Assembly: GCA_037138755.1 (NCBI GenBank)
Contig: JBAXHT010000001.1
Coordinates: 1,583,805 to 1,647,804, forward strand
Direction: 5' to 3'
Origin: Armatimonadota bacterium
GTDB taxonomy: Bacteria; Armatimonadota; Fimbriimonadia; Fimbriimonadales; Fimbriimonadaceae
Length of the DNA: 64,000 nucleotides
Numbering within the stretch: position 1 is the stretch's first letter; each line of letters opens with the position of its first letter. The position numbers and the translations under genes are program-made. The notes below the pieces were generated by a model, which saw nothing but the letters and a program-made list of their open reading frames with translations, searched no databases and was not told the DNA's origin. Positions 43,069-57,418 of the stretch are shown here, one piece after another.

Positions 43069-43143
43069 GTTCAACGCCCGAGCATAACGACCCAGGAATA
43101 AGAATTTTGTTCAAAATATATTCCAAATGAAGAATAACCATAC

Positions 43144-43149: not shown

Positions 43150-43240
43150 GGAACTAAGCCCGATTGGTTTAGTCTAATCCCTGATCCATCAAGGTCCCAA
43201 GCAATCATCGAACGATTGATATTTTCACTGAGGAAAATTC

Positions 43241-44044
43241 ATGCAAAACACAAAACGAGCATTCACCCTAATTGAGCTCCTCGTCGTCATCGCGATTATC
43301 GCGATCCTCGCCGCCATCCTGTTCCCGGTCTTCGCGCAAGCCAAGCTTGCGGCGAAAAAGGCTTCTGACCTTTCAAACTTGAAGCAGCAAGCAACGTCTG
43401 CGATCTTGTACCAAGGAGACAGCGATGATGTCAGCGTTGCCCAGTTCCGAGACGCTGGGGGCTGGCTCTACTGGTTCGCAGGTTCCGGAAAGGACCTAGG
43501 ATTCATGGATCCGACCGAAGGCAACAACTGGAGCCGAGAAACCATGCCGTACATGAAGAACCTCGACATCTTCAAGAACCCGGCTGCACCCAACGATCCC
43601 AACGGCACTTACGGGTACCGAAACAAGGCTGGCGCTGGAAACGGTAGCTACGCGGCAAACGGCATCGTGCTTGGTATTAGCCAAACCTCCTATTCGGACC
43701 CCGCCAATACGATCTACTTGGTCGACAAGGCAACCACGACCCGAGAGTCGATCGTGCAGCCAACTCCCTTGTACCCACTAGCCGGTCCGCTCATCGCAAA
43801 CGGAATCGACATCAACTGGGTCGGAATCAGTTTCGGATCCAAGGCAAACTACGCATGGTGTGATGGTCACGCAAAGACTTTCGACAGAAAGGCAATCCAG
43901 TTCCGACACTACGGAATCGCTGGCACTGTCCACCAGTTCGGTCCTGGAAACCTAGACGTACCGAATACCCAGACAATGCAAGACCCGCGAACGAACCCTA
44001 ATCAATGGTGGACGTACGGGAACGCAGACCCAAGCGGCATCTAA
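43241..44044 (+). CDS. Prepilin-type protein
   Basis: 267 aa. [19 protein letters not shown] opens the signal, with FPVFAQAK after the hydrophobic helix, and YQGDSDDVS and YAWCDGHAKTFDRKA as the family boxes. Residues around the middle are rich in Gly, Asn and Tyr. It is probably processed by a prepilin peptidase and surface-displayed. A hairpin then a small lipoprotein gene follow. Confidence 0.9.
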   Translation: MQNTKRAFTLIELLVVIAIIAILAAILFPVFAQAKLAAKKASDLSNLKQQATSAILYQGDSDDVSVAQFRDAGGWLYWFAGSGKDLGFMDPTEGNNWSRETMPYMKNLDIFKNPAAPNDPNGTYGYRNKAGAGNGSYAANGIVLGISQTSYSDPANTIYLVDKATTTRESIVQPTPLYPLAGPLIANGIDINWVGISFGSKANYAWCDGHAKTFDRKAIQFRHYGIAGTVHQFGPGNLDVPNTQTMQDPRTNPNQWWTYGNADPSGI

Positions 44045-44432: not shown

Positions 44433-46700
44433 ATGATCTTCGCAACGCTTTCCCTCATGCTCATGAAGCCAAATGTGCAAGAAGTTCAGCCTTTTCCATT
44501 GAGCGCTGTGCGCGTCTTTGGAATGCAGGCGGATCGGCAGCAAGTTGACCTCAAGTACTTGAAGTCCCTTGACCCGATTCGGCTCCTGCACGGGTTTTAC
44601 GTTAACTCGGGGATCACCCCGCCCAAACCTCGCTATGGCGGATGGGAGGCGATGGGGATTGAGGGGCACTCGCTTGGGCACTATCTTTCTGCTTGTGCGC
44701 TCATGTACGGCGCCACTGGCGATCCTGTGATGCTCGAGCGGACAAAGACGATCGTAAAGGAACTTGCGGAATGCCAGACAGCCGCCAAGAGCGGCTTCCT
44801 CGGCGGGATGCCCGATGCTGCTCGCATCTTTGCCGAACTCAAAAAGAGGGACATCCGTAGCCAAGGATTTGACCTCAATGGCAATTGGGTGCCCTGGTAC
44901 AACATCCATAAGACGCTCGCTGGCCTACTTGACACCTATCACCAAACCGGCAATAAGCAGGCACTGGAAGTCCTAAACAAAAACGCTGAATGGACTCAGG
45001 AACTCACAAAAGAGTTTTCCGACGAAGACTGGCAAAAGATGCTCGCTTGCGAGCATGGCGGCATGAACGAGTCGTTTGCCGATCTCTATTCAATCACTAA
45101 AAATCCGCTCCATCTGGAATTGGCCAAGAAGTTTCACCACAAGGAGATTCTGGGTCCCCTCGAAAAAGGCGAGCGAAAGTTGGCAGGTAGGCACGGGAAT
45201 ACCCAAATCCCTAAAATCCTCGGGACCGCTCGACTCTACGAAGCCACCGGAGACATGCGATTCGAGGCGATCTCAAAGAACTTCTGGAACGAGGTCATCG
45301 AAGATCACACCTACGCCATGGGTGGCCACGGCCTTGGCGAGCACTTCGGTCCTGCCGGAAAACTGAGCGAGCGGCTCGGGACGACCAACGCGGAAACTTG
45401 CAACACCTACAATATGCTCAAGCTGACCGACCACCTGTTTCAGTGGTCGCCTTCCACCCGTCTGGGCGATTATTATGAGCAAGCGCAGCTCAACCATATC
45501 CTCACCAGCGAGGACCTCGAAACGGGCGGAGTCACCTACTTTGTGCCTTTGAAGGCCGGTGCCAAGAAGACCTACACTGATCCAACTGAAGACTTCACTT
45601 GCTGCCGAGGGACCGGAATGGAGAACCACGCCAAGTACGGTGAGGGAATCTATTACCACCGCGGTAACGAACTTTGGGTCAATCAGTACACGCCTTCGCA
45701 TCTCACCTGGAAAGAGCAAGGCGCGACCATAACGCTGATCACCGAGTACCCCAACTCAGACACAATAACGGTTCAGATTGATGCGACGAAGGCGACTAAG
45801 CTGAAACTAAACTTCCGCGCTCCAGCCTGGGCGTCGAAGGGGATGTCACTGAGTTTTGGTGGCGATAAGATCACGGCGAAAGCTGGAGAATGGCTTGTGT
45901 ACGACCACGAGTTCAAGGGGGTTCAATCGCTCGAACTCAAAATCCCGATGGCGCTCCGAACCGTACCGATGCCCGATAACCCCAACCGCGTCGCCCTGAT
46001 GTATGGCCCAACTCTTCTGGTCGCCGAATGGGGTTCAACCGAGGAGAAGCCGGGCGAACGATCCCCCGTTTTCATCAAAGACGACCGTCCAGTCGAGCAA
46101 TGGCTGAAGAAAACTGGTCCTCGGACGTGGCACTCGGTCGGGAATCTGCTACCGACCGACCTCGCGTTCCGCCCATTCTTTGACATTCAGCACGAGCGGT
46201 ACAGTGCCTATCTTGATGTGTTCACTCACCAAGACTGGGAGAACCGGGAGGCCGAGTTCCGCAAGAAAGAGGCCGAAGAAGCTGCGCTCAACGCCCGAAC
46301 GCTCGACTGGTTCCAACCCGGCGAGATGCAAGCGGAAAGGGATCACAACGTTCAAAGCGAGCTCAGCGGCCCCGCTGAGTGGCAGGGTCGAAAGTGCCGC
46401 CACGCCTGGAACGGCGGCTGGTTCTCGTTCGACCTGAAGGTCGATCCGAGTAAGACTCAAGACGTCGTCTTCACCTATTGGGGTGGAGACCGCCGCACGT
46501 TCGACGTTCTGTTGGACGGCGCAGTTTGGGAGACCCACAGTGGAAACGGTCAACCGGCCGAGAAGTTCTTCGATAGGACTTTGAAGTTGACTCCAGAAAT
46601 GCTGAAAGGGAAGTCCAAAGTGACGATCAAGCTCCAAGCCGAAAAGCCCAACGGTTGGGCCGGTGGGCTGTTTGGGGTTAGGGTTTTGAAGGGAGTCTGA
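44433..46700 (+). CDS. GH127-type beta-L-arabinofuranosidase
   Basis: 755 aa. The DUF1680/GH127 core has GHSLGHYLSACALMY near residue 80, WVPWYNIHKTLAGLLDTY near 155, and the metal/catalytic residues in ETCNTYNMLKL (about 320) and FTCCRGTGMENHAKYG (about 390). These retaining enzymes release L-arabinofuranose using a Zn-bound Cys. C-terminal beta-sandwich domains follow (about 560-755). No clear signal peptide: MIFATLSLMLMKP is short and the protein may be exported or cytoplasmic. Confidence 0.92.
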   Translation: MIFATLSLMLMKPNVQEVQPFPLSAVRVFGMQADRQQVDLKYLKSLDPIRLLHGFYVNSGITPPKPRYGGWEAMGIEGHSLGHYLSACALMYGATGDPVMLERTKTIVKELAECQTAAKSGFLGGMPDAARIFAELKKRDIRSQGFDLNGNWVPWYNIHKTLAGLLDTYHQTGNKQALEVLNKNAEWTQELTKEFSDEDWQKMLACEHGGMNESFADLYSITKNPLHLELAKKFHHKEILGPLEKGERKLAGRHGNTQIPKILGTARLYEATGDMRFEAISKNFWNEVIEDHTYAMGGHGLGEHFGPAGKLSERLGTTNAETCNTYNMLKLTDHLFQWSPSTRLGDYYEQAQLNHILTSEDLETGGVTYFVPLKAGAKKTYTDPTEDFTCCRGTGMENHAKYGEGIYYHRGNELWVNQYTPSHLTWKEQGATITLITEYPNSDTITVQIDATKATKLKLNFRAPAWASKGMSLSFGGDKITAKAGEWLVYDHEFKGVQSLELKIPMALRTVPMPDNPNRVALMYGPTLLVAEWGSTEEKPGERSPVFIKDDRPVEQWLKKTGPRTWHSVGNLLPTDLAFRPFFDIQHERYSAYLDVFTHQDWENREAEFRKKEAEEAALNARTLDWFQPGEMQAERDHNVQSELSGPAEWQGRKCRHAWNGGWFSFDLKVDPSKTQDVVFTYWGGDRRTFDVLLDGAVWETHSGNGQPAEKFFDRTLKLTPEMLKGKSKVTIKLQAEKPNGWAGGLFGVRVLKGV

Positions 46701-46745: not shown

Positions 46746-48239
46746 TTAACTCAACTTGAACGTCCCGGCATGCATCGACATTGGCGGTAGCTTCACTGTC
46801 GCAACCCCGCCGCCAACCGACGCCTCAAAATCCCGAGCGACAATCGTGTTGGGTGAGTCAAAGGTGTTCGCCGCCTTGGGATCCGTTCCCGTCAACAGCT
46901 CGCCGTTCAAAGAGGCAACAATCGCGCGATCTCCGACCCTAACCGTCACTTCGTGCGAAGACGAAAGGTCGCGGTTCACCAGGAACACGCTCAGTTCATC
47001 CCCGTTCAGGATCGCGCTGGAGTCGATGTAGGTCGCGTCTCCATAATCTGCAGAAGCATACGAAGGACCATCCAACCGCACGTGAAGCGCAATCCCTTCG
47101 CGTCGCTTCGCCATCATCTCGATCGGATAGAAAATGGTCTGGTAGACCATCTCATCCCCCCGAGTCAGAAGCGGAGCGATCACGTTAACGATCTGCGCGA
47201 TGTTCGCGATCTTCACCGAATCCGCGTGGCGGATAAAGCTATTGAGGAAGCCCGCCGCGACGAGCGCATCCTCCAGGTTGTACTCCTCTTCCAGCAAGTG
47301 GGGGGCGAACTTGCCAGCACCGTCGCTGTGAACTCCGTCCCTGGCTCGGTACCAGACGTTCCATTCGTCAAAGCTCAGCTTGACTGGCTTTTTGAGCTTT
47401 TTCGTATGGGCCACCGACTGACAGATCGAGTCCATCGCCTCGATCTGCTCGTCAATCGAGTTTGTCACCGCCAGAAAGTTCGGAGTATCGTTCTTGGAGT
47501 TCCCCACATACCGGTGAAGCGAAATGTACTCGACATCGTTTTTACAATGTTCCAACACCTTTCGGTCCCACTCGAGGTAGGTGGGCAAATCTGGGGCGCA
47601 CGAACCACAAACGACTAGTTCAATCGACGAATCGACCATCTTCATCATGCGCGCCGTCTGCTGGGCCTGGATCGCGTAGGTTTCTGCGGGAACGTGGCCA
47701 ATCTGCCACGGGCCGTCCATCTCGTTCCCCAAGCACCAAAGCTTGACGTCAAACGGGTTGGCGTACCCGTGCTCCTCGCGTCTCGCCGCGTACTTGGATG
47801 GTCCCTGAATGTTGCAGTATTCCAGCCAGTTTCGCGCCTCCTCGGGAGTCCCAGTTCCGAGGTTGACTGCCATCATCGGCGTCCAGTCCATCCGCTTCGA
47901 AAGCTCCAAGAACTCGTTCGGTCCGAACTGGTTCGACTCTAATGACTGCCAGGCCAAATCCCGGGTGATCGGGCGATTTTCTCGAGGGCCCACCGCGTCT
48001 TCCCAGTGGTACCCGCTGACGAAGTTTCCGCCGGGATACCGCATCGCCGTGAACCGCAACCGTTTGAGTGCTTCAAGAACGTCGGTTCGGCAACCGTGCT
48101 CATCAGCGTGCGCAGAAGTCGGCTCGTAAACGCCCTCATAAACGGCGCGCCCAAGGTGTTCTAAGAAGCCACCAAACACGCGAGGATCGACCTCGGCAAT
48201 TTGGAAGGATGTATGCAAATGAAGTGTGCTTGTTTTCAT
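46746..48239 (-). CDS. GH51-type alpha-L-arabinofuranosidase
   Basis: 497 aa from the ATG at 48239 (the frame extends upstream into the permease gene). The acid/base Glu is in WCLGNEMDGPW (about residue 173) and the nucleophile Glu in LSFDEWNVWY (about 290), as in GH51 enzymes. ERGFLEHLGRAVYEG-like FGGFLEHLGRAVYEGVY at the start is typical. It removes arabinofuranose from oligosaccharides after import, no signal peptide. Last gene of the minus-strand transporter operon, 10 bases after the second permease. Confidence 0.95.
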   Translation of the reverse strand: MKTSTLHLHTSFQIAEVDPRVFGGFLEHLGRAVYEGVYEPTSAHADEHGCRTDVLEALKRLRFTAMRYPGGNFVSGYHWEDAVGPRENRPITRDLAWQSLESNQFGPNEFLELSKRMDWTPMMAVNLGTGTPEEARNWLEYCNIQGPSKYAARREEHGYANPFDVKLWCLGNEMDGPWQIGHVPAETYAIQAQQTARMMKMVDSSIELVVCGSCAPDLPTYLEWDRKVLEHCKNDVEYISLHRYVGNSKNDTPNFLAVTNSIDEQIEAMDSICQSVAHTKKLKKPVKLSFDEWNVWYRARDGVHSDGAGKFAPHLLEEEYNLEDALVAAGFLNSFIRHADSVKIANIAQIVNVIAPLLTRGDEMVYQTIFYPIEMMAKRREGIALHVRLDGPSYASADYGDATYIDSSAILNGDELSVFLVNRDLSSSHEVTVRVGDRAIVASLNGELLTGTDPKAANTFDSPNTIVARDFEASVGGGVATVKLPPMSMHAGTFKLS

Positions 48240-48249
48240 TGAATCGTAA

Positions 48250-49062
48250 TCAGTCCTTGAGGCCGGACGAGGCCATGCTTTCGACAATCTGCTTTTGAAA
48301 AACGAGGAAGACGATGAGGAGCGGTATCGAGGCTAAGACGCTGGTCGCGAGTGTGCGGCCATACTCCGTGTAATAGGATGCCTGGTACATCGCGATGCCC
48401 ACGGGAAGCGTATAGTTTCGCACCGAATCCATGTACACAAGCGGCGAGACGTAGTCGTTCCAGGAGCCAATGAAGGTCAGCACTCCGAGAGTCGCCAGAG
48501 CCGGAGCGCACAGCGGCAAAGTCACGTTTGCAAAAACTTGCGCTGGTGAGCAGCCGTCGATTAGGGCAGCCTCTTCCACCGCCGAAGGGACCGACCGCAT
48601 GAACTGCGACAACATAAACACCCCAAATCCGCCAGCCGTTGCCGGAACGATGAGGGCCGCTGGAGTATCTAGCCAGTGAAGCTTGCTCAAGATGAAGTAA
48701 ACCGGTACCAGGAACAGTTGTCCTGGGACCATCATCGAGAAGACAACGGCACCAAGAAATGCGCTTCCGCCCTTCACTTTGAGGCGAGTAATCGCAAATG
48801 CCGCCATCGAAGATAGGGTTAGAACAAGCAGAGTGACCGAGGACGAAACAAAAACGCTGTTCAGCAACCATCGTCCAAAAGGGGCTTCCTCTGACCATTC
48901 GAGGACGTTGCGATAGTTCTCCGACGTCCATACCTTGGGGATCACCGACGCCGGATTGAGCACTTCACCCTCTGCCTTAAACGAGGTCAGGAACATCATC
49001 ACTATTGGAAAGGTGAACGCGAATGCGACTAACAACATCACGACCCAAAGCAGCTTCTTCAT
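48250..49062 (-). CDS. Sugar ABC transporter permease (MalG/AraQ-type)
   Basis: 270 aa from the ATG at 49062. Six transmembrane helices and the EAA loop VEEAALIDGCSPAQVFANVTLPL. The start overlaps the previous permease by 4 bases (ATGA). It pairs with the other permease to import arabinose or arabino-oligosaccharides, inferred from context. The ATP-binding subunit is not in the locus and is probably a shared one encoded elsewhere. Confidence 0.93.
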   Translation of the reverse strand: MKKLLWVVMLLVAFAFTFPIVMMFLTSFKAEGEVLNPASVIPKVWTSENYRNVLEWSEEAPFGRWLLNSVFVSSSVTLLVLTLSSMAAFAITRLKVKGGSAFLGAVVFSMMVPGQLFLVPVYFILSKLHWLDTPAALIVPATAGGFGVFMLSQFMRSVPSAVEEAALIDGCSPAQVFANVTLPLCAPALATLGVLTFIGSWNDYVSPLVYMDSVRNYTLPVGIAMYQASYYTEYGRTLATSVLASIPLLIVFLVFQKQIVESMASSGLKD

Positions 49063-49937
49063 TGCGAAGCGTTCCTCCGCATTGCAACAAACTGGATCAC
49101 TCCGAAGACCATAATCACCGCCGTGAGCATCCAACTAATCGCGGCTGCGTACCCAAGGCGATATTGCTGGAAGGCAATTTCGTAGATGTATTGCACCGTT
49201 CCCCGAGTCGAAAGTTCGGGTCCGCCTTGGGTCAGCAGTGAAGCCTGTGGGAACATCTGGAACGCCCCAATGGTGTTCGTCAGAACCGTAAACAGTAGCA
49301 CCGGTTTGATCAGCGGCATGGTGATCTTCGAAAACGTCTGCCAGCCTCCCGCGCCATCGAGGGCCGCGGCTTCGTGGTACATCGTCGGAATCTGCTGAAG
49401 TGAGGCCAACAAAATGACCGTTGTTCCCCCGCTCAGCCACCAAAGGGACATCAAAACGATGCTTGGCATTGCCAGCGATTTCTCGCTTAGCCAGGGAACC
49501 GCTGTCCCACCTAGTTGCTTGATCACCCAGTTGAAAAAACCGAACTCCAGGTTGTAGAAGAACTGCCAAAGGATTGCGGTGACAGCGATGGTGAAGATCC
49601 CCGGTAGGAAGATCATTCCCCTAAACAGGTTTCGACCGCGCTTCAATGCGTTCAATCCCATCGCCATCGCCAAGGCAAGAACGAGGAGAGAAGGGACGAA
49701 CAGGAGCACATATCGCGCGGTCGCCACCATTGCCTGTTTGACGTAATCGTCTTTCCAGGCATCGATAAAATTCTGAGTTCCCACGAACCGGATCTGCTCG
49801 GTGGAGGTGAGGTCGAACTGCATGACGGAGAGCACCAACGCAACCAAGATCGGTAGGACTAAAAACATCGAAAACGATAAGGCGTAGGGAGCCAAAAACA
49901 GGTATCCCGTCATTTGCTGCCGCTTTTTCCAGGTCAA
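49059..49937 (-). CDS. Sugar ABC transporter permease (MalF/AraP-type)
   Basis: 292 aa from a TTG that overlaps the binding-protein stop by 4 bases (TTGA). Six transmembrane helices with the EAA loop MYHEAAALDGAGGWQTFSKI near residue 195. First transmembrane helix: GYLFLAPYALSFSMFLVLPI. Partner of the following permease. Confidence 0.93.
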   Translation of the reverse strand: MTWKKRQQMTGYLFLAPYALSFSMFLVLPILVALVLSVMQFDLTSTEQIRFVGTQNFIDAWKDDYVKQAMVATARYVLLFVPSLLVLALAMAMGLNALKRGRNLFRGMIFLPGIFTIAVTAILWQFFYNLEFGFFNWVIKQLGGTAVPWLSEKSLAMPSIVLMSLWWLSGGTTVILLASLQQIPTMYHEAAALDGAGGWQTFSKITMPLIKPVLLFTVLTNTIGAFQMFPQASLLTQGGPELSTRGTVQYIYEIAFQQYRLGYAAAISWMLTAVIMVFGVIQFVAMRRNASQ

Positions 49938-51190
49938 GGAGTCACCGCCTTGCGGTGTTGCTCGGCGTCTCGATCCATTGCTTTTTGGGTGTTCTCGTCG
50001 GCGATCTTGAGGGCGTCTTTTGCCGTTGCCCGACCCCGAATTACTTTTTCAACCGCGAGGTTGATCTCCACTCCCATCTCGAACAAAACCGGGATGCGAG
50101 GGAAGTACATCATTGTCGGAATCTGCTCGGCGAAAGCCGCCTGAACGTGCAATTCTTTGAACTCGGGCAGCTCGCGCACCGAACGCCGGGCAGGCACCTG
50201 ACCAGCGGCGGCCCATCGTAGCGAGTTGGCTGAGAGATACTTGACGAAACGCTCTGAAGCCTCGCGTTGCTTTGGCGACATTTTTGGGCGGAAACATAGG
50301 GTGTGCGAATCTGCGAGGGTGCCAGCGTGTTTTCCGATTACCGGAATGGGCGCTCCCATGTAGTTCATGCCTTCGAGCCGCAGAAGGTCGCCGAGCATAT
50401 AGATGCCATCCCAGACCATCCCGACCTTTTTCTGGCGGAAACCCACCCAGCCGAGCTGATTGTCGGGTGGAGGAATCAGGTTGAAATCCTTTTTGAGAGA
50501 ACCCAAAAACTCAAGGGCCTCGATGTTCTGGGGGCAATCTAAGTCTGCCTTCCCGTCCGATCCCAGATAGTGACCGTCGAACTGAGGAATGAGAGAAAGG
50601 AAGTTGTTGTTCCACGCCGTGAGGGCGTATCCGAAGGTGTCCTTCGATAGCATGGCTTTTGCGGCTCGCAAGAACTCCTCGCGGTCTTTCGGCGGCGCGC
50701 TAAGTCCGGCACCGCGCAGCATATCTTTGTTCAGAAACATCCCCTGCGGGTGAATGTCCAGCGGGACGCAGAAGCGTTTCCCTTCAAACTTTGTTTGCTC
50801 GACGACGTAGGGGTCAAAGTCGTCCGCAGGAATCGCGGATTCAAAGAGCGAATCCATCGGAGCCAAAACCCCCGCCCGGTGCATTCGCGTCAGCGCCGAA
50901 GCATGGATGACGAACACGTCCGGCCCTCGGCCGTCGAGGCCTGAGACCATCACTTTGTTGTAATACAACGCCCAGGGAATCCGTTGCATCGTGACCTCGA
51001 CATCGGGGTTCGCGCGGTTGAAGTCACGAATCATCTCTAGCATCACCCGGCCATCAGGACCGGTAAAGCCGTTCCAAAACGTGATCGGGGTTTTTGTTAC
51101 CGCAAGTGATCCGCAAGAAAAGTCACCGCGCACAACCGAGAGCCCGAGGCAGAGCCCCAGAAGCAACCCGATTCCTGTGCGAGCGGTCAT
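49934..51190 (-). CDS. Sugar ABC transporter substrate-binding protein
   Basis: 418 aa. Signal sequence TGIGLLLGLCLGLSVVRG; a Cys at residue 26 could be the lipid site, but the preceding residues fit a lipobox poorly, so it may be a free secreted protein. The extracellular solute-binding fold (family 1) starts at PITFWNGFTGPDGRVMLEM. It captures the sugar for the two permeases that follow. Three bases separate it from the GH43 gene upstream. Confidence 0.9.
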   Translation of the reverse strand: MTARTGIGLLLGLCLGLSVVRGDFSCGSLAVTKTPITFWNGFTGPDGRVMLEMIRDFNRANPDVEVTMQRIPWALYYNKVMVSGLDGRGPDVFVIHASALTRMHRAGVLAPMDSLFESAIPADDFDPYVVEQTKFEGKRFCVPLDIHPQGMFLNKDMLRGAGLSAPPKDREEFLRAAKAMLSKDTFGYALTAWNNNFLSLIPQFDGHYLGSDGKADLDCPQNIEALEFLGSLKKDFNLIPPPDNQLGWVGFRQKKVGMVWDGIYMLGDLLRLEGMNYMGAPIPVIGKHAGTLADSHTLCFRPKMSPKQREASERFVKYLSANSLRWAAAGQVPARRSVRELPEFKELHVQAAFAEQIPTMMYFPRIPVLFEMGVEINLAVEKVIRGRATAKDALKIADENTQKAMDRDAEQHRKAVTP

Positions 51191-51193
51191 CGT

Positions 51194-52498
51194 CTAGTCT
51201 CCGATCCGATAGCCTCGCACGACGAGTCCCGCTTGCGTTCGACCCACGTAATAGTTACCTTGATAGTGCAAGGTCACCACGTCTTCCCAGAAATCCTTCG
51301 GATCTTCGCGTTTGGGCCATTGCAGGGTGAGTTTGTCCTTTGTCAGCTTCCACTTGCCCTTCCGATCTCCGCTTTGGAATTCACCCTTTGGCAGGAAGTG
51401 GATTTCGTCGATGTTCCCGAAGTCGGCCTGATGTGCCCATTTTCCGCCAAAGCTCATTTGCTCTTTTAGTGGCGTTGCGGCGAGATGTTCGAGTGGCAGT
51501 CCAGGTACTGGCCAGCCGTCCTCACCCCAAAACATCTCCCTCACTTGAACCCGAGGAAGCCCCCACTTCCCGTCGGTCCAATACTTTCTCCCGTCGTAAA
51601 AGTGGTAGCTGGTCAGCCAACGTCCTTTTGAATCCTGCAAGACCTCGTTATGCCCGGGCGAGAACATCGGTGGCGAGGTTTTGAGGAGGCTGACGTGGCC
51701 ACCTTCTGTCATCGCCTTACCGTCGGCATCGACGTAGGGACCGTTCGGCTCTCTGGAGCGACCCACCATCATCTGGTAAGTACTTCGTACGCCCTGCGCG
51801 GCGAGACCGTAGGAAACGAACAAGTAGTACCATCCGTCCTTGTACATCGCGCAGGAGCCTTCCAGCGCATTCTCGCGCGAAGTTGTGTTTCGGGCGACTT
51901 GAAAGGGTGGTTTAGCCGTGACATCGAGCATCTTTCCAGTTGTCGGATCGAGTTCGACGCAGTAGATTCCCGCGAAATAGCTTCCGAAGAACATCCAGTG
52001 TCTCTTCGTTTGGTCGATCAGTATTTCGGCATCAATGCAGTTGTAAAAATTTCGATCCTTACGACTATCGATCACTTCTCCCCGATCAACCCAGCCCTCC
52101 GTCGGCTTTTCTGGATCGAAGTGATCGTTTTCAAGGAATCCGATGACCGAATCATTTCCGCCGAAGAACCGGCTCGCACAGTAGTAAACGCGAACCTTAT
52201 TTCCGTAGACGACGATGTCCGGTGCCCAAACTGAGCGATGCTCAGGAACGCGCTTCTTCAGCCAATCTGGGTTCTCTTTCAAGAGCGGGCCAAACGTTTT
52301 CCAGGTCTTGAAATCGCGGGTTGTCTTGACGACTCCCATCCCTTGTCCGCTGGTCGAAACTGAAACATAGGTTCCGTTAAACTCGAGAACGGCGGGGTCG
52401 TGAGTATGCTCCGACCCCTCCGCGAACGAGCCATCGCCCGGAAAAGCCGACCAATCTGAGGTCATCATCATCGCCACCACTGCAAAAGTTCCGAGCAT
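51194..52498 (-). CDS. GH43-type arabinosidase
   Basis: 434 aa from the ATG at 52498, which begins a signal-like MLGTFAVVAMMMTSDWSAFPG; the frame extends further upstream but into less plausible sequence. A five-bladed propeller of GH43: base Asp in EHTHDPAVLEF, pKa-modulating Asp in SVWAPDIVVYG, and acid Glu in ALEGSCAMYKDGWYY. Likely arabinan endo-1,5-alpha-L-arabinosidase or arabinofuranosidase. C-terminal region (from about 330) is a beta-rich extra domain. First gene of the transporter operon. Confidence 0.9.
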   Translation of the reverse strand: MLGTFAVVAMMMTSDWSAFPGDGSFAEGSEHTHDPAVLEFNGTYVSVSTSGQGMGVVKTTRDFKTWKTFGPLLKENPDWLKKRVPEHRSVWAPDIVVYGNKVRVYYCASRFFGGNDSVIGFLENDHFDPEKPTEGWVDRGEVIDSRKDRNFYNCIDAEILIDQTKRHWMFFGSYFAGIYCVELDPTTGKMLDVTAKPPFQVARNTTSRENALEGSCAMYKDGWYYLFVSYGLAAQGVRSTYQMMVGRSREPNGPYVDADGKAMTEGGHVSLLKTSPPMFSPGHNEVLQDSKGRWLTSYHFYDGRKYWTDGKWGLPRVQVREMFWGEDGWPVPGLPLEHLAATPLKEQMSFGGKWAHQADFGNIDEIHFLPKGEFQSGDRKGKWKLTKDKLTLQWPKREDPKDFWEDVVTLHYQGNYYVGRTQAGLVVRGYRIGD

Positions 52499-52562: not shown

Positions 52563-53528
52563 TTACGTGAATGGGAAGACTTTTCTTGCTGGGGCGATGT
52601 CGCCACCCTTCGAAGAGTGGTGAATCTTAAACACGATATCCGTTTCAAAGGAACCAAATCCCTTACCAAAAAGCGAAAAGCCGCCCTGGTTCGCGGCATC
52701 ATGCTTCACTCCGAGGCGGACCTTGGTCGCTTGCCACGGCTGCACATTGATCGAAGCCATGGAGATATCGCTCAGCTTTTCGCCATCAACAAACGCTCCG
52801 GTTGGACCGACGCTGAATACTTTGTAGTAGCCGTGCTGGTTCATGTAGTCCTGCCACCACGGCGGGTTGAGGCGACCTTTTTCGCCGCCCGGATCGCCAG
52901 GAGAGATCCAGGTGCCGATCTCAACATCATTAATCCAGATCGTAATGTCGCTGGGGTAATCGTTCGCGTAGCCTGGGGCTTCGGAACTTAGCTCAAGGGC
53001 GAGCTCGATCGAATCGATCACGGTTGTGAATGGCAAGGAGTTGGGAAAGACGTACTCGACGAATCCGCCGCCCGACCAGAGGATTTCTGCCTTTGCGCGA
53101 TCTGGAAAGCTGAAGGCGAGAGGATCGTCGATGACGCCGATCATACGGTCGCGAGTTGCCAAGCCGCATGTTGGCGTGACCTCAAACTGCGAATACATAC
53201 CCACGGGAACCTCGACTTCAACAACATAATCCTTGTCTTTAGGTTTTCCACCGAGATCGACAACGATGCGGTCGTGGATTCGTCGGCAGCGCTTTTGCAT
53301 TCCCTGGACCCCGGAAGTGTAGTCGCTGATCACCAGACCGGCCTCTTCTAAGGTTTGAACGTGTTTTGTGATGCTCGGCTGGGCGAGTCCGAGAGCTGCA
53401 GAAAGCTCGTTGATGTTCATCTCTCCTTCGCTGAGGAGTTCGAGAATGCGGATTCGGGATTCAGACGAGAGGGCACGAAATATCGCTGCACTTTCGTTTG
53501 TGTTGAGGTCTCGCAGGTTCAACGACAT
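52563..53528 (-). CDS. ArsR-like winged-helix regulator with a large C-terminal domain
   Basis: 321 aa from the ATG at 53528 (a TTG at 53552 is possible). Residues about 10-75 form a winged helix: FRALSSESRIRILELLSEGEMNINELSAALGLAQPSITKHVQ as a continuous ArsR-like domain split here for readability. The remaining 240 residues are beta-rich (VGMYSQFEVTPTCGLA, DITIWINDVEIGTWISPGD) and look like a ligand-binding jelly-roll. It lies between the GH43/transporter operon and the divergent isomerase gene, so it is probably the arabinose sensor. Direction of control (repressor or activator) is not evident. Confidence 0.82.
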   Translation of the reverse strand: MSLNLRDLNTNESAAIFRALSSESRIRILELLSEGEMNINELSAALGLAQPSITKHVQTLEEAGLVISDYTSGVQGMQKRCRRIHDRIVVDLGGKPKDKDYVVEVEVPVGMYSQFEVTPTCGLATRDRMIGVIDDPLAFSFPDRAKAEILWSGGGFVEYVFPNSLPFTTVIDSIELALELSSEAPGYANDYPSDITIWINDVEIGTWISPGDPGGEKGRLNPPWWQDYMNQHGYYKVFSVGPTGAFVDGEKLSDISMASINVQPWQATKVRLGVKHDAANQGGFSLFGKGFGSFETDIVFKIHHSSKGGDIAPARKVFPFT

Positions 53529-53559
53529 AACGTATCCAGAATCATACACCAAGTAAGCC

Positions 53560-53571
53560 GGAATACATTCC
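53560..53571. promoter_or_regulatory. Inverted repeat in the divergent arabinose promoter
   Basis: GGAAT at 53560-53564 and ATTCC at 53567-53571 form a perfect 5-base inverted repeat with a 2-base spacer, 32 bases from the regulator start. A candidate site for the ArsR-like regulator. Confidence 0.4.
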
Positions 53572-53589
53572 GATGGCCGATGGGACAGG

Positions 53590-53611
53590 AATATTCTTCA
53601 TATAGAATATT
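53590..53611. promoter_or_regulatory. Inverted repeat upstream of the isomerase gene
   Basis: AATATTCT at 53590-53597 pairs with AGAATATT at 53604-53611 (perfect 8-base arms, 6-base spacer). It lies 69 bases before the isomerase start codon in the only long gap of the divergent promoter. ArsR-type regulators often bind such A/T-rich palindromes. Confidence 0.5.
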
Positions 53612-53679
53612 TATAGCGTTGCTTGTAGATTTATCGGAGCATCAGTCAAATCAAATCGTGCAAAATAGACGCATTCACC

Positions 53680-55086
53680 ATGAAGAGAGTCACGCTAGGC
53701 GTCATTATCGGCAACCGAGGGTTCTTCCCGACTCACCTCTGCGAGAGCGGTCGAAAGACGATTCTTGAGGTTCTGGAGCAAGAGGGTATCGATGTTGTTG
53801 TACTGCCCGACACCGCTTCTCCGGCGGGTTCGGTTGAGTCTTTGGCGGAAGCTCATGCTTGCGCTGATCTGTTCCGAGCGAACCGGGATAAGATCGACGG
53901 CGTCTTGGTGACCCTCCCCAACTTCGGCGACGAACGGGCTATTGCGAACGCCCTCCGTTTCGCCGACTTGAATGTTCCCGTGTTGATTCACGCTTTTGCA
54001 GATGACGCGAAGCGGATGACAATTGCCGATCGCCGCGATAGTTTCTGCGGAAAGATGTCAGTTTGCAACAACCTTCGGCAGTACGGCATCAAGTACAGCC
54101 TTACGGACCTGCACACCGTTGATCCAACGTCGGCTTCCTTCCGAAGCGACATTCAGAAGTTTGCCGCTACTTGCCGAGTGACAAAGGGCTTGCGCCGCGC
54201 CCGAATCGGTGCAATCGGTGCTCGGCCGGGTGCATTTAACACGGTGCGATATAGCGAGAAGCTGTTCGAGCAAGCGGGGATCACCGTCGAAACCCTTGAT
54301 CTCTCGGAAGTGCTCGGCTGGGCCAATAAGCTCACGTCTTCCGACGCCACGGTGAAGGACAAACTCGAAAAGATTCGGGCTTACACCAACACCGACGGAA
54401 TTCCTGCTGAGAGCTTGGACAAAATGGCTCGCCTCGGCGCGGCTATCGACACTTGGTCAACCGACAATCGCATTGACGCAACCGCGATCCAATGCTGGAC
54501 GTCGCTCGAAGAATTTTACGGCGTCGTCCCATGCACCATCATGTCAATGATGTCGGATTCACTGAAGTCCAGCGCATGCGAAACCGACGTTGCCGGTACG
54601 GTTTCGATGTACGCACTGCAACTCGCCTCGCATCGCCCTTCGGCACTACTCGACTGGAACAATAACTATGGCGGCGACCCCGATAAGTGCGTCGTGTTCC
54701 ACTGTTCCAACCTTCCGAACTCAGTGTTTGCCGAGCAGAAGATGGATTACCAGGAGATCATTGCGGGAACTGTTGGCAAAGACAACACTTACGGCACCAT
54801 CGTTGGCCGAATGAAAACCGGTCCGTTTACCTTCTGTCGGGTCTCCACGGACGACTTTTCCGGGGACATTGTCGCTTATCTTGGCGAAGGAAACTTGACC
54901 AACGACAACCTGATCACCTTCGGTGGATTTGGGGTTGCGGAGATTCCGAACATGCAGAATCTCCTCAAGTTCATCTGCGAAAATGGCTTCGAGCACCACG
55001 TTGCCTTCAACCTTTCGGAGGTCGCAGGAGCCGTTGAAGAAGCGATGAGCAACTACCTCGGCTGGGCGACTTACCGACACCGCTAA
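53680..55086 (+). CDS. Fucose/arabinose-isomerase-family enzyme, probable L-arabinose isomerase
   Basis: 468 aa. It belongs to the L-fucose/L-arabinose isomerase family by its ends (GVIIGNRGFFPTHLCESGR, and WTSLEEFYGVVPCTIMS and ACETDVAGTVSMYALQLAS with metal-ligand Glu and Asp). It is not a standard AraA by sequence pattern. Because it is followed by araB and araD in one unit and preceded by arabinan-degrading genes, its most likely substrate is L-arabinose (to L-ribulose). L-fucose cannot be ruled out from the sequence. A strong intercistronic hairpin follows. Confidence 0.85.
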   Translation: MKRVTLGVIIGNRGFFPTHLCESGRKTILEVLEQEGIDVVVLPDTASPAGSVESLAEAHACADLFRANRDKIDGVLVTLPNFGDERAIANALRFADLNVPVLIHAFADDAKRMTIADRRDSFCGKMSVCNNLRQYGIKYSLTDLHTVDPTSASFRSDIQKFAATCRVTKGLRRARIGAIGARPGAFNTVRYSEKLFEQAGITVETLDLSEVLGWANKLTSSDATVKDKLEKIRAYTNTDGIPAESLDKMARLGAAIDTWSTDNRIDATAIQCWTSLEEFYGVVPCTIMSMMSDSLKSSACETDVAGTVSMYALQLASHRPSALLDWNNNYGGDPDKCVVFHCSNLPNSVFAEQKMDYQEIIAGTVGKDNTYGTIVGRMKTGPFTFCRVSTDDFSGDIVAYLGEGNLTNDNLITFGGFGVAEIPNMQNLLKFICENGFEHHVAFNLSEVAGAVEEAMSNYLGWATYRHR

Positions 55087-55145: not shown

Positions 55146-56783
55146 ATGAGCACCCAATACACCATCGGAGTCGATTACGGAACCAACTCGGTCCGAGCCC
55201 TGATCGTTGACATCAGCAACGGCGACGAGGTCGGCACTGGCGTCTGGGAGTATGAAACCGGGGAAGCTGGTGTTCATCTTGATCCCAATGACGTGCATCT
55301 GGCTCGTCAGAATCCGGCCGATTACCAAAAGGGGTTCTACGAGTCTGTGCGGCTGGCACTGGAGAATGCCGACCAAATTGATAAGAGCCAGATTATCGGG
55401 ATTGGCGTCGATACCACTGGCTCGACGCCGTTACCAGTCGACGCCGAAGGTGTAGCTCTTGCGCTCAAGCCTGAGTTCAAAGGCAATCTCCACGCTATGG
55501 CGTGGCTATGGAAAGACCACACCGGCTACGCCGAAGCTGCCGAGATCACCGAAAAAGCCGTCGACTATCCCTATCTGAAGAAGTGCGGTGGAACCTACTC
55601 CTCGGAGTGGTTCTGGTCAAAAATTCTTCGCTGTAAGCGGGTTGCTCCCGAAGTTTTCGCGGCGGCTGACTCCTGGGTCGAGCTCCAGGATTACGTCCCC
55701 GCATGGCTAGTAGGGAAGTCCAAACCCGCCGAGATTCCCCGAGGAATCTGTGCCGCCGGGCACAAGGCCATGTACCACGAGGACTGGGGCGGCCTCCCCT
55801 CGGAGGAGTTTCTTTGCACGCTTGATCCCGCTTTGGTAGAGTTGCGGAAACGGCTGTTCGGCCGAACCTGTACTGCGGACCAACCAGCCGGAACTCTGCA
55901 ACCAGAACACGCCGAAAGGCTCGGTCTTCCTCAAGGAGTTACCGTTGCGGTTGGAGCATTTGATGCTCACCTCGGGGCCGTTGGCTCCGGGGTTCGACCC
56001 GGAACACTTGTTAAGATCATGGGCACTAGCACCTGCGATGTCATGATCGGCGATGCGTTCACACCTGATATCCAGGGCGTATGCGGAGTTGTTCCCGGTT
56101 CCGTTGTTCCCGGATACATGGGAATTGAGGCGGGTCAAAGTGCGGTTGGCGACCTTTTCAATTGGCTGGTCAACCAGTTCGGCAGCGACCACGCAACCCT
56201 CAACCAAGAGGCGCTGAGGCTCAAGCCGGGAGAAAGCGGTCTCGTCGCGCTAGACTGGAACAACGGCAACCGGACCATCCTCGTCGATCCACTATTGACC
56301 GGGTTGATCGTCGGACAAACACTTCACACCACACGTGCTGAGGTCTACCGAGCGTTGATTGAAGCGACCGCTTATGGCTCCAAGAAAATCATCGACCAGA
56401 TCGAGAAAGAAGGTGTCGCCATCAATGAAGTGATTGTGTGCGGAGGCATCGGTGAGAAGAGTCCTCTTACGATGCAAATCTACGCCGACATTTTGAACCG
56501 TCCGATCAAAACTAGCCGAAGTGCGCAGACATGCGCGCTCGGCTCGGCGATCATGGCAAGCGTTGCCGCTGGTGCCCATGAGAATGTTTTGTCGGCTATC
56601 CAGAGAATGACGGGAACCAAGGAGAAGGTCTATTTACCGTCTGTCGAGTCTGCGGCAACCTATCACAAGCTATACGAAATTTACTCTCTCCTTCACGACT
56701 CATTCGGCATATCGGGCACCAAAAATGACCTGAGTCAAGTCATGAAGCAACTGATCCAGATCCAAAAGGACGCCCTGAAATGA
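55146..56783 (+). CDS. araB: Ribulokinase
   Basis: 545 aa FGGY-family kinase that phosphorylates L-ribulose to L-ribulose 5-phosphate. The N-terminal ATPase motif VDYGTNSVRALIVDIS, GIGVDTTGSTPLPVD, and the C-terminal VCGGIGEKSPLTMQIYADI (ADENOSINE motif) are present, plus GFDAHLGAVGSG-like GAFDAHLGAVGSG. Good match for AraB length and motifs. Its last codons overlap araD (ATGA). Confidence 0.96.
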   Translation: MSTQYTIGVDYGTNSVRALIVDISNGDEVGTGVWEYETGEAGVHLDPNDVHLARQNPADYQKGFYESVRLALENADQIDKSQIIGIGVDTTGSTPLPVDAEGVALALKPEFKGNLHAMAWLWKDHTGYAEAAEITEKAVDYPYLKKCGGTYSSEWFWSKILRCKRVAPEVFAAADSWVELQDYVPAWLVGKSKPAEIPRGICAAGHKAMYHEDWGGLPSEEFLCTLDPALVELRKRLFGRTCTADQPAGTLQPEHAERLGLPQGVTVAVGAFDAHLGAVGSGVRPGTLVKIMGTSTCDVMIGDAFTPDIQGVCGVVPGSVVPGYMGIEAGQSAVGDLFNWLVNQFGSDHATLNQEALRLKPGESGLVALDWNNGNRTILVDPLLTGLIVGQTLHTTRAEVYRALIEATAYGSKKIIDQIEKEGVAINEVIVCGGIGEKSPLTMQIYADILNRPIKTSRSAQTCALGSAIMASVAAGAHENVLSAIQRMTGTKEKVYLPSVESAATYHKLYEIYSLLHDSFGISGTKNDLSQVMKQLIQIQKDALK

Positions 56784-57418
56784 CCCTTCGAGAGCGAGTT
56801 TGTAACGCAAATAGAATGCTGCCGAAGGCGGGATTGGTGACAATGCACAGCGGCAATGTCAGTGGGCTAGACCGATCAGCGGGAAGGTTGTACATCAAGC
56901 CAAGCGGGATGGACTACGACGCGATGATCCCTGCCGATATGGTCGAAGTTGATCTTGTATCCGGAGAAGCGATCCAGGGCCAGCGCAAGCCGAGCGTCGA
57001 CCTTTCCCACCACATCTACCTCTTCAAAAACGACCCGTCGATCAACGCGGTGGTACATACCCATAGTAACTATGCAACGGCGTTCGCCGCCGCTCATCGC
57101 TCGATTCCGTGTGTACTGACTGCCATCAGCGACGAGTTCGGTGGCGAGATTCCCTGTGCCCCTTACATTGACAACGAGGGAGACCATATCGGAGAAGCAA
57201 TTCTCAAACACCGAAGCCGTGGGCCAGCCATCCTGCTTGGAAACCACGGCGTCTTCGCGTGGGGCGAAACTGTAGAAAAGGCACTCAAAGCCGCAATCAT
57301 GATCGAGGACGTCGCCAAAACCGTACACCTGAGTCTGCAGTTGGGCGCGCCGATTCCGATTGCCGAAGCGGAGGTTGAGAAGTGGTGGAACCGATATCAC
57401 ACTACCTACGGGCAGTAG
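56780..57418 (+). CDS. araD: L-ribulose-5-phosphate 4-epimerase
   Basis: 212 aa class II aldolase-fold enzyme, close to the usual length of about 230. The sugar-phosphate site GNVSGLDRSAGRLYIKPSG, Zn ligands HTHSNYATAF (about residues 93-95) and the later GNHGVFAWG with His are present. It converts L-ribulose 5-phosphate to D-xylulose 5-phosphate. Its stop codon directly abuts that of the convergent response-regulator gene (TAG then CTA). Confidence 0.95.
   Translation: MTLRERVCNANRMLPKAGLVTMHSGNVSGLDRSAGRLYIKPSGMDYDAMIPADMVEVDLVSGEAIQGQRKPSVDLSHHIYLFKNDPSINAVVHTHSNYATAFAAAHRSIPCVLTAISDEFGGEIPCAPYIDNEGDHIGEAILKHRSRGPAILLGNHGVFAWGETVEKALKAAIMIEDVAKTVHLSLQLGAPIPIAEAEVEKWWNRYHTTYGQ

Follow-up and report, generated by a model that had tools for sequence, protein, structure and literature searches.

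The DNA analysed here, a stretch of 64,000 nucleotides from an Armatimonadota bacterium (the window), encodes a protein of 321 amino acids (52563-53528, minus strand, stop codon 52563-52565) in which an ArsR-type winged helix is followed by a jelly roll resembling carbohydrate-binding modules (CBMs) of families 6, 35 and 36. Computation gives its domain layout, its predicted fold, the sequence of a candidate operator and its gene neighbourhood; on this basis, and with a probability of about 0.65, the protein is a one-component arabinose/arabinan regulator of the type of ArbA (a protein reportedly described by Rodionov and co-workers), acting as a repressor at a dyad in its divergent promoter and binding arabinose or an arabino-oligosaccharide through the jelly roll. 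Local regulation of the arabinose genes through the dyad at 53591-53610 is very likely, and repression as well as sugar binding by the jelly roll are likely.

Members of the ArsR family are known from textbooks as sensors of metals and stress. In the window protein the winged helix covers residues ~8-90 and the jelly roll residues ~100-306. Residues 23-67 score 46.2 bits with Pfam HTH_5 (PF01022; cut-off 22), the ArsR helix-turn-helix profile NF033788 is also reached (57.4 bits, cut-off 55), and the list of 22 Pfam families at E <=1 includes neither an AraC nor a GntR DNA-binding domain. The original prediction of an ArsR-like helix joined to a beta-rich C-terminal domain, different from AraC and GntR regulators and accompanied by two inverted repeats, is confirmed, except for the TTG at 53552 taken as the start codon, which adds 8 residues too many: judged from the homologues, which begin at the ATG at 53528, this is the start, and with the corrected start the divergent intergenic region between the regulator and the arabinose-isomerase-like gene measures 151 bp (53529-53679). 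ArsR/SmtB metal sensors carry a Cys-containing metal-site motif in their DNA-binding helices; this motif was not found in the window protein, considered within a family of 55 members, residues 1-80 being devoid of Cys and Cys81 and Cys121 being the only conserved cysteines. Like CzrA (Z 13.0, rmsd 1.8, 78 residues), SmtB and CadC the protein has a winged helix, whereas these sensors have ~100 residues, no jelly roll and metal-site motifs that were not observed in the family of the window protein. COG4189 is presumably the name for this type of protein, and the literature searched gave it in one unrelated paper.

Since the winged helix dominated the fold search with the whole regulator (AlphaFold2 model with a mean pLDDT of 86.9, 55-row alignment), the C-terminal domain was modelled alone, and residues 96-321 produced a beta-rich AlphaFold2 model with a pLDDT of 91.4 and a pTM of 0.86. 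The sugar-binding type of jelly roll that had been proposed from the sequence is supported by this model, whose closest structural matches (Z 8-10) are CBM6 2cdp (Z 9.8, rmsd 2.8, 123 residues), CBM35 2w1w (Z 9.6, rmsd 3.2, 124 residues) and CBM36 1w0n (Z 9.1, rmsd 2.8, 117 residues). In the VIA-align comparison the first 14 of 50 rows were carbohydrate-binding modules or enzymes bearing them, with rows <=1 Z unit apart counting as tied and identities of 6-18%. Insecticidal crystal toxins (12/50 rows) and BcsB (3/50 rows) are also present, which indicates that the jelly-roll fold is a common one; BcsB was ranked first by Foldseek on the C-terminal domain. At the sequence level the C-terminal ~225 residues have no Pfam, NCBIfam or PDB match: the NCBIfam matches listed for the regulator are all within, or start in, the winged helix, the C-terminal parts of the 55 members scanned alone gave no NCBIfam match and a single marginal one in Pfam (DUF5716_C, E=0.0074, in one member), at E 0.01 none of the members had a Pfam match to any CBM family, and a PDB sequence search with the domain profile returned one chance match and none that was meaningful. 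Assignment to the jelly-roll fold class is well supported by the predicted model, and membership of a CBM family is not supported. Unlike CBM6, CBM35 and CBM36, which are appendages of enzymes, the window domain has no sequence-family match, is located within a DNA-binding protein and contains an insertion of ~45 residues in which Trp, Asp, Asn and Gly are frequent; this is the best-conserved stretch of the family, as a ligand-binding pocket might be.

The regulator is followed, in the same direction (minus strand), by a GH43 gene (51194-52498; PF04616), the solute-binding protein (49934-51190) and two permeases (49059-49937 and 48250-49134) of an ABC transporter, recognized by profile search, and a GH51-type alpha-L-arabinofuranosidase gene (46746-48287; PF06964; 578.5 bits with NF051901, under the cut-off of 625) whose start may be internal. 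Divergently, on the plus strand, lie an arabinose-isomerase-like gene related to Fucose_iso_C, named here araI (53680-55086), araB for ribulokinase (55146-56783; NF003154 above cut-off) and araD for L-ribulose-5-phosphate 4-epimerase (56780-57418; NF005123 above cut-off). The proposed link with arabinose is supported by the neighbours in other genomes: among 28 non-duplicate clade loci, with homologues taken at >=45% identity within the flanks, the regulator is found beside GH51, GH127, araI, araB or araD homologues in 22 and with all three ABC parts in 18. One locus (L054) has the transporter and GH43 only, and five (L012, L052, L063, L065, L073) have neither arabinose homologues nor a transporter, the last three being short contigs. 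In G017 the GH43-transporter-GH51 operon is absent beside the regulator; a GH51 remnant of 29 codons (L009:9060-9146) adjoins the regulator, which is intact, as is araI-araB-araD.

A contig scan for relatives detected 27 loci in Armatimonadota, Bacillota, Spirochaetota, Chloroflexota and unplaced bacteria. The regulator protein is present in 30 of the 85 genomes of the window's family, and the C-terminal domain model was matched in 47/291 genomes of the window's phylum and 24/398 genomes of a second phylum (that of G292), with multiple copies in some cases (five in one Paenibacillus genome, seven in G318). Nearly all domain matches lie in an open frame big enough for a fusion of helix and jelly roll; in G510 one exception was examined, a protein of 710 residues (L159:5110-7242, minus strand) which has a lipoprotein-like start with the jelly-roll domain near it, no helix-turn-helix and no Pfam match. 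Outside Armatimonadota several relatives adjoin ABC transporter, GH43 and GH2 genes, and three (L020, L021, L033) have mostly unrelated neighbours, save that in L021 a GH51 fragment lies at the locus edge and diverges from the regulator. A second regulator clade (L075-L079, L082, L083, L013-L019, L032) adjoins other transporters.

A shared fold shows no function, and the jelly roll could only dimerise or act as a scaffold, or a different ligand could be sensed, such as a metal or a thiol through Cys81, invariant in 55/55 members, and Cys121, kept in >=90% of them. The occurrence of sugar genes as neighbours in several phyla, the composition of the conserved insertion and the presence of the same domain without a helix-turn-helix in the envelope-type protein of G510 all argue against this explanation, which is regarded as rather unlikely.

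Both inverted repeats pointed out earlier in the divergent promoter (53560-53571 and 53590-53611) are present. The second one, AATATTCT-N6-AGAATATT, is a perfect 8+8 dyad that encloses the main candidate operator, ATATTC-N8-GAATAT (53591-53610), whose 12 core bases occur in exact form only here in the whole genome (3.27 Mb). A blind search for any dyad covered the 28 clade loci (64 upstream regions) and retrieved the same motif in nine of them, with a maximum of 2 across ten shuffles, and the 744 kb of loci contained six exact dyads, all of them 53-115 bp 5' of the regulator start, and none in 3 Markov shuffles. The single exact genome copy and the blind recovery from related promoters place the second repeat beyond chance, and together with its position before regulators they suggest that it is very probably the operator.

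The first repeat, GGAAT-AC-ATTCC (GGAAT-N2-ATTCC, 53560-53571), is perfect in the window, loses its palindromy in two other orthologous promoters and, as a 5+5 palindrome, is of a size that chance could give. Its half TACATTC (53564-53570) is unchanged among the three closest orthologous promoters, at a constant distance from the main site; the repeat is a weaker candidate site and may be a half-site or a piece of the regulator's promoter. The original interpretation is supported as regards the sugar-binding-type fold and the arabinose link, and strongly so for the second repeat as a binding site; it is so far not supported in taking the first repeat for a complete site. Directly 5' of araI, AAATCGTGCAAAATAG (53653-53668) is also invariant in three orthologous promoters. 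Two boxes derived from three close orthologues, GGAATATTCC and GAATRYATTC, were rejected as the main signal, their window counts being near chance; the sole exact genome copy of GGAATATTCC (715-724) is within coding sequence. A 26-bp spaced double site occurs only once in the genome, and its spacing is constant in the three orthologous promoters. The 18 clade members whose regulator is not preceded by the dyad, either exact or with 1 mismatch, showed no common motif, and 10 promoters of other phyla gave nothing clearly above shuffles. A different dyad, ATCAT/ATTAT with N12, occurs in 8 of the 17 promoters of the distant clade 2 (shuffle maximum 3).

Imperfect copies of the dyad may point to further targets. 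A copy with 1 mismatch (43118-43137), a second candidate operator that recurs in G023, is located 5' of a prepilin-like gene (43241-44044) and a GH127 gene (44433-46700), and a weak copy with 2 mismatches (43219-43238), ahead of the same two genes, is identical in G023. Prepilin-like genes adjoin arabinose genes both here, between the candidate operator and GH127, and at L014:2962-3849. Elsewhere in the genome a 1-mismatch copy (C1:606947) lies just 5' of a solute-binding protein gene followed by an ATPase gene with AraG as best NCBIfam match, under cut-off, and another (C1:1647957), within a permease gene, looks like chance. Since the dyad is found at 69 places of the window genome when <=2 mismatches are allowed, weak copies alone mean little.

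Homologues over both domains, divergent from GH51, are encoded in three genomes (G448, G475 and G619; L154-L156) of 2.5-2.9 Mb with 35-36% GC (in the stretch taken), and in G448 and G619 the homologue and GH51 are separated by a palindrome that conforms to what we take to be the AraR consensus. The GC content, the size, the abfA divergence and the AraR-type palindrome indicate that these are presumably Caldicellulosiruptor genomes. The window protein is 40 and 41% identical, over both domains, to the homologues of G475 (L155) and G448 (L154), and on account of this identity and of the divergent GH51 it is placed with ArbA under the presumed species assignment. An ArsR-family regulator type for arabinosides is already in print as ArbA, the first ArsR-family regulator of carbohydrate use, which in Caldicellulosiruptor is divergent from abfA and has three predicted sites (PMC8579813). 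As far as the available portion of that paper describes it, ArbA resembles the window regulator in its family, in adjoining an alpha-L-arabinofuranosidase gene (GH51 in the window regulator's run of genes) and in having predicted palindromic sites in the shared intergenic region; it differs in having abfA as partner and sharing control with AraR, whereas the window regulator stands between an arabinan-uptake operon and araI-araB-araD (PMC8579813). The arabinan cluster of Geobacillus 56T3 lists, in the portion of the paper available, an ArsR gene with a solute-binding protein, two permeases and GH43, the same gene company as that of the window regulator, and the likeness is one of annotation only (PMC4428132). 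AraR (GntR) and AraC also control arabinose genes, with DNA-binding and sensor domains that differ from those of the window regulator. In the literature searched we found neither the fold of the sensor nor its occurrence across several phyla nor the operator in Armatimonadota, and the statement on the fold is limited to that search.

From these data we infer dimerisation, a sugar as the ligand, and repression rather than activation. The ArsR winged helices of a dimer would contact ATATTC-N8-GAATAT in the promoter region that two operons share, and thereby repress the regulator's own operon (GH43, ABC transporter, GH51) as well as the divergent one (araI-araB-araD), while the second copy of the dyad would control the prepilin-like gene and GH127; binding of L-arabinose or a short arabino-oligosaccharide to the jelly roll in the cytoplasm would weaken the grip on DNA. 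The sugar-bound protein could instead stimulate transcription from the dyad, which stands mid-way between the two genes (73 bp from the regulator start and 79 bp from the araI start) and overlaps no promoter element identified, a scan of the intergenic region for sigma-70-type promoters having found none. Such an activator is considered unlikely, ArsR proteins being mostly repressors. The ArsR-family sites of Caldicellulosiruptor, situated in 5' UTRs or overlapping promoter elements, were likewise read as repression by the authors in the portion of the paper available (PMC8579813).

The distribution of exact dyads in the 85 family genomes bears on which protein uses them. Among the 22 found, six directly precede the regulator gene, two precede araA, one a sugar-binding protein gene and three ArsR-SulP genes, and ten have no arabinose link, most of which look like chance. 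Exact sites occur in 13/30 regulator-bearing genomes vs 7/55 other family genomes. The dyad might belong to another regulator, the gene studied acting elsewhere; a candidate is a short ArsR protein whose gene adjoins a SulP transporter and has an exact dyad ~20 bp 5' in three genomes (L117, L120, L123; G007, G057, G063), where a shared operator code or cross-talk is possible. Against this, the nine sites in arabinose contexts are all in regulator-bearing genomes, none of the seven exact sites of regulator-free genomes is in such a context, and six of the 22 sites lie directly 5' of the regulator gene; the explanation appears improbable. That the repeats are chance palindromes without a role, as the size of the first repeat alone and the ten unlinked dyads might suggest, is hardly credible for a second repeat that is unique in the genome, was recovered blind and is placed 5' of regulators.

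A comparison across the genus shows that the dyad accompanies either araA or araI. Of the 20 genomes, 13 have classical araA and 8 have araI (>=78% identity, a count that leaves out a 40% paralogue in G018); each genome has at least one of them and only G015 has both. As araI and araA replace each other across the genus, araI probably encodes an unrelated L-arabinose isomerase; its protein has no match among PDB sequences. The dyad lies between the regulator and araI in G000 and G017 and, with 2 mismatches, in G023; it lies between the regulator and araA in exact form in G009 and G016 and with 1 mismatch in G025, and an exact dyad is found 5' of the L-arabinose isomerase gene araA in G020 and G022. 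In G011, G012 and G024 a 1-mismatch dyad is ahead of a run of GH51-like, araI and araB genes, and since in G011 and G012 more than 1 kb separates the site from the GH51-like gene, a further gene is assumed between them. Altogether, araI operons have the dyad at 0-2 mismatches in 6/7 genomes of the genus with araI as well as the regulator; no dyad was found before araI in G015, which has both, nor in G014, which has araI and no regulator.

For the use of arabinose by Armatimonadota this work supplies an operator and a list of targets that are ready to be taken up, and it identifies an uncurated domain family in the two phyla searched (47 of 291 and 24 of 398 genomes). The odds are about even that ArsR-type repressors gained a cytoplasmic inducer module similar to CBM6/35/36, giving rise to an undescribed class of sugar sensors in Armatimonadota, Bacillota, Spirochaetota and Chloroflexota, in which case the module, also carried by an envelope-type protein, may serve both gene control and sugar capture. 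If true, an ArsR branch reading plant sugars via a domain similar to carbohydrate-binding modules would widen what the fold senses.
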